A model generated the notes under the pieces. It had not been told where the DNA came from and searched no databases. It was given only the letters and a program-made list of their open reading frames with translations. Shown here in pieces: positions 12,016 to 17,614 of a stretch of DNA of 64,000 nucleotides; the first letter of the stretch is position 1; each line of letters starts with the position of its first letter. Both the position numbers and the translations under genes were made by a program. Origin of the DNA: Acidobacteriota bacterium (GTDB lineage: Bacteria > Acidobacteriota > Thermoanaerobaculia > UBA5066 > Gp7-AA6); assembly GCA_027307335.1 (NCBI GenBank), contig DAHUXD010000050.1, forward strand, positions 1 through 64,000, read 5' to 3'.

Positions 12016-15079
<3,064 letters not shown>

Positions 15080-15161: not shown

Positions 15162-16145
15162 TTACGCCCCCAGCGAGGTCTTCCTCGCGAGAACGTATCC
15201 CACCGCTGCCAGAAGAACGACGAGACCGGCGATGCCGGCGACCGAGAGCGTCGGCACCGCGGCCGCCACGGGGACGGCCTGGCCCGTGAAGCTGACACCC
15301 GTGTCGACCACGGCCGGCACCGTCGGTGTGACGACCAGCCCGGCCCACTCGAGCGCGGCGCCGTTGTCGATGCAGGTCGCGTCCACCGTGTTGTCGAGGT
15401 TGCCCGACGAGATCTCGTCCCAAACGCTCGAGTATCCCTGTGCCGTCCACTTGCTGGCGGGCGTCGTGCCCTGCCACATGATCGTGTACTGAAGCTGATG
15501 ACAGCTCGCGTCGGCCCCGTGGCCGCCCGCGCCGGCCGCCGAGCCCAACGAGAAGCCCTGGTCATTGTCGGCGAGATAGAGGTCGGATCCGACAAAGGCG
15601 TTCAGCGTGGCGCCTCCGCCGGGCGCGGCCGGCGCCCCGGGCGGCGGCGCAACGGCGAAGGACAGATTGATGACCGCGCCCGCCGCGCCGTTGACGTACG
15701 TCAGCGTCTCCGTCAGCCGGATGCCGAGGGTACCCGCATCGGCGACGATGACGACGGTGAACGGATCGCCCGACGTTCCGGTTCCGGTCACGGGAGTCAT
15801 CGAGACGGGGGTCCAGGGCGTGTAGGTGTTCGACGCCGAGCCGCACGGGTGATTGTTGAAGTCGGGCCCGAAAATGGTGGCGCCGATTGAAGCGAAGGTC
15901 CCCGAGTCGGCGGTCTCGCCGGCGCTGCAGTCGGGAGGATAGAACTGACCCGTGCCAGGAACGTTGCTGTTGGTGACCTGGAGCGAAGTGTCGTTGCCCA
16001 CCACGATCGTGAGCGGGTTCCCCGCGATCGTCACGGTCGCCGGCGCGAGCGGAGTGAACGGCTGCCGCGGCACGCGGCGATTCTTCGAAGCCCACGCCGG
16101 AGCCGCGAGGGCCAGACACACGAGCACGAGCGCGACGCGTTTCAT
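15162..16145 (-). CDS. Secreted protein with IPTL-CTERM-like sorting tail
   Basis: 327 aa. Signal peptide at the N-terminus (VALVLVCLALAAPAWA). The body is Thr/Gly-rich and beta-like, with cysteines that could pair. The C-terminus has a tripartite sorting signal: VPTLS, then a hydrophobic helix (about 300-320), then a basic ARK tail. This matches the IPTL-CTERM type, in which a VPTLS/IPTLS motif precedes the membrane segment and an exosortase-like enzyme is thought to process it. No exosortase gene is in this window. A terminator follows. The ATG at 16145 has GGCGG seven bases upstream. Confidence 0.8.
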   Translation of the reverse strand: MKRVALVLVCLALAAPAWASKNRRVPRQPFTPLAPATVTIAGNPLTIVVGNDTSLQVTNSNVPGTGQFYPPDCSAGETADSGTFASIGATIFGPDFNNHPCGSASNTYTPWTPVSMTPVTGTGTSGDPFTVVIVADAGTLGIRLTETLTYVNGAAGAVINLSFAVAPPPGAPAAPGGGATLNAFVGSDLYLADNDQGFSLGSAAGAGGHGADASCHQLQYTIMWQGTTPASKWTAQGYSSVWDEISSGNLDNTVDATCIDNGAALEWAGLVVTPTVPAVVDTGVSFTGQAVPVAAAVPTLSVAGIAGLVVLLAAVGYVLARKTSLGA

Positions 16146-16445: not shown

Positions 16446-17192
16446 ATGGCTGGCTGCGCAAGCGGAGGCGGCTGCGGCATCGGGAACGCGTACAACCCGG
16501 GCCAGTACGTCGGGATCCGCATGAACGAGCACGAGGATGGCCGGAGCGTCCTCTGCGACACGACGGGCGTCGAGGTCTCCCGCAAGCAGCGGGTGATCGT
16601 CGAGGGGGATTCCGGCTTCGAATATGCCGAGGTGACGAACTTGCGGCCGATGATCCTGAAGCAGTGCCAGCTGCGGGACTCCCGGCGGCTCGTCCGGGTC
16701 GCCACCGGCACGGACCTCGCGGCCTACCAGGCGAAGGTCGATCGGGAGGGCCGGTTTCTCACCGATGCCCGGCGGCTCGCCGGCGAGAAGCGGCTGACCA
16801 TGAAGCTCATCCGGGCCGAGGAGGCCTTCGACGGTCGAAAGGTCACGGTCTATTACACTTCCGAGGCCCGCATCGACTACCGCAAGCTCGTCTCCGACCT
16901 CGCCCTCGCCCACCCCGTCCGGATCGAGATGCGGCAGGTCGGCCCCCGGGACGAGACCCGGATGCGCGGCGGCATCGGGCCGTGCGGGCTGACGCTCTGC
17001 TGCTCCACGTTCCTCAAGGGCTTCCACCCGGTAACCATCAAGATGGCCAAGAACCAGAACCTCTCGCTGAACCCCTCCAAGATCTCGGGCATGTGCGGGC
17101 GGCTGATGTGCTGCCTCGCCTACGAGGACGAGGCGCCGGACCGGGGAGCCTCGAAGAAGCCGCAGAATATTCCGGTGCCGACCCCTGTTTGA
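16446..17192 (+). CDS. ricT: PSP1-domain protein, RicT/YaaT-like
   Basis: 248 aa. The PSP1 domain is followed by the conserved cysteine cluster GIGPCGLTLCCSTF and MCGRLMCCLAYE, with the segment KMAKNQNLSLNP between, as in Bacillus RicT (YaaT). In Firmicutes RicT with RicA and RicF forms an Fe-S complex that controls RNase Y and mRNA maturation. Here ricA and ricF are not seen. Extra N-terminal cysteines (MAGCASGGGCG) are present. The ATG at 16446 is the first good start; the open frame upstream has no support. An Hfq-like RNA-binding gene follows after 44 bases, which fits an RNA-related role by inference. Confidence 0.88.
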   Translation: MAGCASGGGCGIGNAYNPGQYVGIRMNEHEDGRSVLCDTTGVEVSRKQRVIVEGDSGFEYAEVTNLRPMILKQCQLRDSRRLVRVATGTDLAAYQAKVDREGRFLTDARRLAGEKRLTMKLIRAEEAFDGRKVTVYYTSEARIDYRKLVSDLALAHPVRIEMRQVGPRDETRMRGGIGPCGLTLCCSTFLKGFHPVTIKMAKNQNLSLNPSKISGMCGRLMCCLAYEDEAPDRGASKKPQNIPVPTPV

Positions 17193-17236
17193 CCGCTCAA
17201 GACGTCCCACCTTTTCGGGACCAAAGTGAGACAGCC

Positions 17237-17614
17237 GTGGTCAATCGAAACACATCCGGCGGCGCTTTCCGAAACGAAGACGAGGGTCCCGCCAACCGCA
17301 AGCTGATCCGCCCGAATCTGGCCGAGCTCGCCGACCGCTACCCGACGCGCTCCTTCTCCCAGCGCAAGCAGGTGCCGCCCGAGCAGACGAACGCCGAGAG
17401 CTACTACTACCTCAAGCAGATGGCGGCCAAGACCCCGATGGTCGTGGTCCTGACCGACGGCGAGAAGATCAACGGCTGGATCGAGTGGTACGACAAGAAC
17501 TGCCTGAAGGTGAACCGCGAGAGCGGACCGAACCTTCTGGTGCCGAAGGCCTCGATCAAGTACATGTACAAGGCCTCCGAGGCCGCGGGCGACGAGGCGA
17601 GCGGGAACCGCTAA
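17237..17614 (+). CDS. hfq: Hfq-like Sm-fold protein with N-terminal extension
   Basis: 125 aa from a GTG. Residues about 50-112 match the Hfq/Sm fold: YYYLKQM corresponds to the FLN helix, MVVVLTDGEKINGWIEWYD to Sm1, and LLVPKASIKYMYK to Sm2. The canonical YKH of Hfq Sm2 is replaced. About 50 basic, disordered residues precede the fold. Hfq hexamers bind U- and A-rich RNA and pair small RNAs with mRNAs; whether this divergent form does so is unproven. It follows ricT by 44 bases, on the same strand. The start is not certain as there is no strong ribosome-binding site. Confidence 0.75.
   Translation: MVNRNTSGGAFRNEDEGPANRKLIRPNLAELADRYPTRSFSQRKQVPPEQTNAESYYYLKQMAAKTPMVVVLTDGEKINGWIEWYDKNCLKVNRESGPNLLVPKASIKYMYKASEAAGDEASGNR

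Follow-up and report, generated by a model that had tools for sequence, protein, structure and literature searches.

A divergent Hfq-related protein encoded next to RicT in Acidobacteriota

Introduction

In Firmicutes, the gene for the PSP1-domain protein RicT (YaaT) belongs to the gene neighbourhood tmk-holB-yaaT. In Bacillus subtilis, RicT is part of the Y-complex and acts as a specificity factor of RNase Y. Residues C161, C166, C198 and C203 of the B. subtilis protein are the four ligands of Fe-S cluster 1, which lies within RicT, and C167 contributes to Fe-S cluster 2, which is shared with RicA and RicF (PMC6751060). A stable complex of RicT with RNase Y requires RicA and RicF in this species (PMC10470536). 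The second group of relatives relevant here are the Hfq proteins with their Sm fold. Among these, cyanobacterial Hfq is devoid of key RNA-binding residues and has a very low RNA affinity, as summarized in a review (PMC10989914).

Here, we describe a locus in a draft acidobacterial genome of 65 contigs, in which ricT is directly followed by a gene for a divergent Hfq-like protein. The window, i.e. the whole stretch of DNA that was analysed, comprises 64,000 nucleotides. It was compared with the genomes of 60 relatives of the same class (61 genomes including the window's own, referred to as the class set) and with a phylum sample of 197 genomes, each at least 90% complete. Genes in the neighbourhoods were called by an open reading frame heuristic and BLAST clusters, one representative of each cluster being searched against Pfam.

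Results

The gene ricT extends on the forward strand from an ATG to a TGA codon (16446..17192) and encodes a protein of 248 amino acids. The protein passed the cut-offs of both the RicT_YaaT model NF041131 (221 bits, cut-off 70, E=1.2e-65) and the PSP1 model PF04468 (78.5 bits, cut-off 27, E=5e-22). A first-pass annotation of this DNA had ascribed a conserved cysteine cluster to RicT, and all six conserved cysteines are indeed present. C180, C185 and C186 are part of the motif GPCGLTLCC (codons at 16983..17003, forward strand) and C217, C222 and C223 part of the motif MCGRLMCC (17094..17114, forward strand), both located by alignment. By motif, they match C161, C166, C167, C198, C203 and C204 of B. 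subtilis RicT. C180, C185, C186, C217 and C222 were invariant across 30 RicT sequences, and the sixth cysteine was likewise conserved in the alignment of relatives. Additional cysteines occur in the short N-terminus MAGCASGGGCG. A Foldseek search of the PDB with the RicT model gave no significant match (lowest E 0.17). Among the weak matches were many RNA-binding proteins that are of the KH type or related to the ribosome (uS3, NusA, RbfA, archaeal CPSF), and the PSP1 domain may be KH-like.

In the RicT proteins of three families (f64, f29 and f69) the first cysteine motif reads CCGxGxxCS, not PCGxxLCCS, which suggests that cluster 1 could be altered or lost there. The genes concerned (L181:2811-3476, L182:4775-5473 and L183:4840-5592) are still found near the gene of the Sm protein described below. 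In the window, the product of the gene divergent from ricT (15162-16145, reverse strand) is of the secreted type and shows an IPTL-CTERM sorting motif that scores near the threshold. Enolase, which is known as part of the degradosome in B. subtilis, is encoded at 12384-13688 (reverse strand), about 2.8 kb away from ricT and with a DivIC/FtsB-like gene beside it; its proximity to ricT is probably a coincidence.

RicA and RicF had been noted as missing near ricT, and their absence goes further than that: PF06133, the family of RicA/RicF-type proteins, had zero matches in the window's whole genome, which is 96.5% complete. Within the class set, PF06133 was found above cut-off in only 2 of the 61 genomes. 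RNase Y, on the other hand, is present in 58 of them, and the window's genome encodes it outside this locus (G000:C63). Since the B. subtilis complex depends on RicA and RicF, RicT would have to work differently here or together with other partners.

RicT is followed, after a gap of 44 bases (17193..17236), by a gene with a GTG start codon for a protein of 125 amino acids (17237..17614, forward strand). No terminator-like site was found between the two genes, which is compatible with both being on one transcript. The best curated match of the protein is PF21979 Hfq_1, whose cut-off it passed (32.9 bits, cut-off 27, E=7e-8). Its scores remained below the cut-offs of canonical Hfq PF17209 (21.6 bits, cut-off 27), TIGR02383 (20 bits, cut-off 61.7) and the cyanobacterial Hfq-related model NF047718 Hfq_rel_Cyano (30.1 bits, cut-off 52). 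In an AlphaFold2 model based on 44 relatives the Sm core reached a pLDDT of about 97, and the top 50 PDB matches of this model in Foldseek were essentially all Hfq proteins, with Caulobacter Hfq (6gwk) as the best and 1kq2 and 3qsu among the others. Both the presence of an Sm-fold protein at this distance from RicT and its extension by about 50 N-terminal residues, as read from the DNA in the first-pass annotation, were thus confirmed.

The extension (residues 1-52, 17237..17392) is mostly unstructured or of low confidence in the model, with a pLDDT of 53-62 (about 57) over the first 50 or so residues. Even so, it carries two stretches that are conserved in the family, RKLIRP starting at R21 and RKQ..PEQTN starting at R43, and R21, L23, R25, P26, Q50 and T51 are among its 23 invariant residues. 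Helix alpha-1 of the Sm fold (residues 53-63, 17393..17425) contributes the invariant residues A53, E54, Y57, K60, Q61 and M62, and the Sm core (residues 65-112, 17429..17572) the invariant K104, which is part of Sm2. At Sm2, the YKH of E. coli Hfq is replaced by PKA in the window's protein. The earlier statement that YKH is lacking therefore applies to this protein but cannot be extended to the family, as YKH or FKH is common in relatives and only the lysine is invariant.

The window's genome also encodes a canonical Hfq; the neighbouring frame includes a miaA-like protein, a label that was read off the sequence and not derived from a family search. The neighbour of RicT is thus an additional, divergent member of the Hfq family. 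Its own family was detected in 132 of the 197 genomes of the phylum sample, and a genome scan yielded 508 confirmed loci. It appears to be an undescribed Hfq-related family that is spread across Acidobacteriota. We found no literature linking an Hfq-like protein to RicT among open-access papers, although absence from these is not proof of novelty. Among the class relatives, family f8 is devoid of RicT and canonical Hfq and has mostly kept the Sm protein as its sole Hfq-like gene. Genus g18 has kept RicT but has neither the Sm protein nor a canonical Hfq.

Both genes occur in nine families of the class set. They are adjacent on the same strand, with ricT first, in 33 of the 34 genomes that have both (counted by eye), and in the one exception (G001) the Sm gene is located at a contig end. 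Either gene can be lost: 11 genomes have only the Sm gene and 11 only ricT. In none of the nine families have the two been rearranged apart, while their flanks change, with purD/purE upstream in several cases and pdxA lost or moved. Neither the window's genome nor several of its class relatives gave a match to pdxA (PF04166); they may use another route of vitamin B6 synthesis or may have lost the pathway.

Among the 80 closest Sm loci of the genome collection, 46 are preceded by RicT on the same strand and 34 are not. Of the genomes with such RicT-less loci 23 were searched for PSP1, all without a match. In 19 of the 34 loci, holB is the nearest recognised gene before the Sm gene, as would be expected if ricT had been deleted between them. 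The full order tmk-holB-ricT-Sm-pdxA is found at three loci (L140, L151 and L181).

In the phylum sample, 69 genomes encode both proteins, 63 only the Sm protein, 21 only RicT and 44 neither, a weakly positive co-occurrence when left uncorrected for phylogeny (odds ratio 2.3, p=0.01). The two genes are adjacent in 37 of the 69 genomes and 18 of 37 families and unlinked in 32 genomes from 19 families; these and the following linkage counts are per genome and family and likewise uncorrected for phylogeny. No family contains both linked and unlinked states, which makes contig breaks an unlikely cause of the unlinked cases. An adjacency without exception wherever both genes are present, as found at the closest loci and in the window's class, turned out to be a sampling effect. 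Among the control pairs, the Sm gene and the vitamin B6 gene pdxA, which it precedes, are adjacent in 49 of the 69 genomes (49 of the 55 with pdxA) and 24 of 37 families, whereas holB and ricT are adjacent in 28 of 69 genomes. The Sm gene thus stays with pdxA more consistently than with ricT. At loci L171-L184, pdxA directly follows the Sm gene across many families, sometimes with an end-to-start overlap (e.g. L173:3721).

Discussion

The first-pass annotation took the linked Sm protein as a sign of a linked RNA-turnover module. We observe the linkage in all nine class families with both genes and in about half of such families across the phylum, so the proposal does not founder on the lack of a conserved neighbourhood. 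Given its recurrence across 18 families, the pairing is well beyond chance. The simplest history that would explain the present-day neighbourhoods is an ancestral block of the five genes tmk, holB, ricT, Sm and pdxA from which different members were lost in each lineage. The window's lineage would have retained only the ricT-Sm core, and the two genes would be neighbours because both derive from this block. As a remnant of a larger block, the pairing is old and real but only hints at a joint function.

Overall, we lean towards the view that the Sm protein represents a new Hfq-related family and that its gene is linked to ricT through inherited synteny, perhaps along with co-expression. Both genes would then be transcribed together. 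RicT, held by an Fe-S cluster for which it provides all four ligands itself, would act as the specificity factor of RNase Y and manage without RicA and RicF. The Sm protein would assemble into an Hfq-like ring and have a job of its own that is partly separate and independent of RicT, be it RNA handling or protein scaffolding. Still, the pair has persisted throughout the class to a degree that would not be expected from inherited synteny in its weakest form.

This persistence would favour a functional tie, such as one dedicated system in which the Sm protein would be the RNA-binding partner that replaces RicA and RicF and both RicT and the Sm ring would steer RNase Y to chosen transcripts. C186 of RicT and the additional cysteines near its N-terminus would then serve a second cluster of altered make-up or an interface that has changed. 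Besides the adjacency in 18 families, such a system would agree with the class pair staying intact after tmk-holB and pdxA had gone (8 genomes of families f1, f2, f3 and f6), with RicA and RicF missing in nearly the whole class in spite of a widespread RNase Y, and with C186 being invariant without its Bacillus partner subunits. Nevertheless, we regard it as rather unlikely. The Sm gene is linked more strongly to pdxA than to ricT, the pair is unlinked in the slight majority of families, and each gene is kept singly, the Sm gene in 63 and ricT in 21 genomes. Moreover, the RKLIRP motif of the extension is kept in lineages without RicT, and the invariant Sm residues include no cysteine for cluster ligation. 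The RNA-turnover module suggested in the first-pass annotation therefore gains from the conserved neighbourhood but is weakened by the pdxA control, the independent losses and the RicT-independent motif; it is a possibility that is compatible with the data and not required by them. A related idea, which we consider distinctly unlikely, is an accessory system of RNase Y in which the Sm ring stands in for RicA and RicF: Fe-S-held RicT would recruit the enzyme, and RNA or a common scaffold would be supplied by the ring through the RKLIRP extension. If this were true, lineages without RicT would use the Sm ring alone.

Several more specific ties between both proteins were considered and dismissed. 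Docking of RicT cannot be the sole role of the N-terminal motif, which is conserved in RicT-less genomes. C89 of the Sm protein was rejected as a replacement ligand of the second Fe-S cluster, as it is valine or alanine in some members and Caulobacter Hfq has a cysteine in the matching strand. That the Sm protein replaces a missing C-terminal part of RicT is unsupported, a short RicT C-terminus being equally common in genomes without the Sm protein. A profile comparison of RicT and the Sm protein gave no homology (hhalign probability 0.3%).

Least probable in our view is that the Sm protein has no role in RNA turnover and is encoded beside ricT by coincidence. Its ring would instead bind proteins through the rim and the N-terminal motif, as proposed for cyanobacterial Hfq. 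PF21979 being the best curated match, the score just short of a match that it reached with the cyanobacterial Hfq-related model below its cut-off and the low RNA affinity reported for cyanobacterial Hfq (PMC10989914) all point in this direction, as do the replacement of YKH by PKA and the presence of Glu54 near the position of Hfq Gln8 in the window's protein. However, K104, which corresponds to Lys56 of Hfq, is invariant, and many relatives carry YKH or FKH. Many members also have arginine-rich tails and extensions of basic character, which would favour contacts with nucleic acids.

The locus is of interest for two reasons. RicT commonly occurs without RicA and RicF, a situation that the Bacillus model leaves unexplained. 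In addition, a phylum that is abundant in soil harbours an Hfq-related family that often lives beside ordinary Hfq and whose strongly conserved N-terminal motif is a putative partner-binding element.

Compared with the B. subtilis system, the window's RicT shares the PSP1 domain, the match to the RicT model and the six cysteines including the four cluster 1 ligands, and RNase Y is present in the same genome. In contrast to B. subtilis, the genome is devoid of RicA and RicF, RicT has a cysteine-containing N-terminal tip, and its gene precedes an Sm gene. The window's RicT also stops shortly behind its last cysteine motif, whereas the B. subtilis protein extends to about 275 amino acids. The order tmk-holB-ricT of many Acidobacteriota is that of the Firmicutes neighbourhood, but in Acidobacteriota the Sm gene and pdxA come after ricT and the window's lineage is left with ricT-Sm only. 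With canonical Hfq (PF17209), the Sm protein has the Sm fold and the conserved positions Gly80, Asp86 and Lys104 in common. It differs in scoring below the family cut-offs, in the RKLIRP-bearing extension of about 50 residues and in a longer loop before Sm2, and the window's protein further in PKA for YKH and in a glutamate near Gln8. Cyanobacterial Hfq (Hfq_1, PF21979; Ssr3341 and Asl2047) is similar in so far as the PF21979 cut-off is passed and Sm2 is divergent in both, but the acidobacterial protein falls below the NCBIfam cyanobacterial cut-off and possesses an N-terminal extension.
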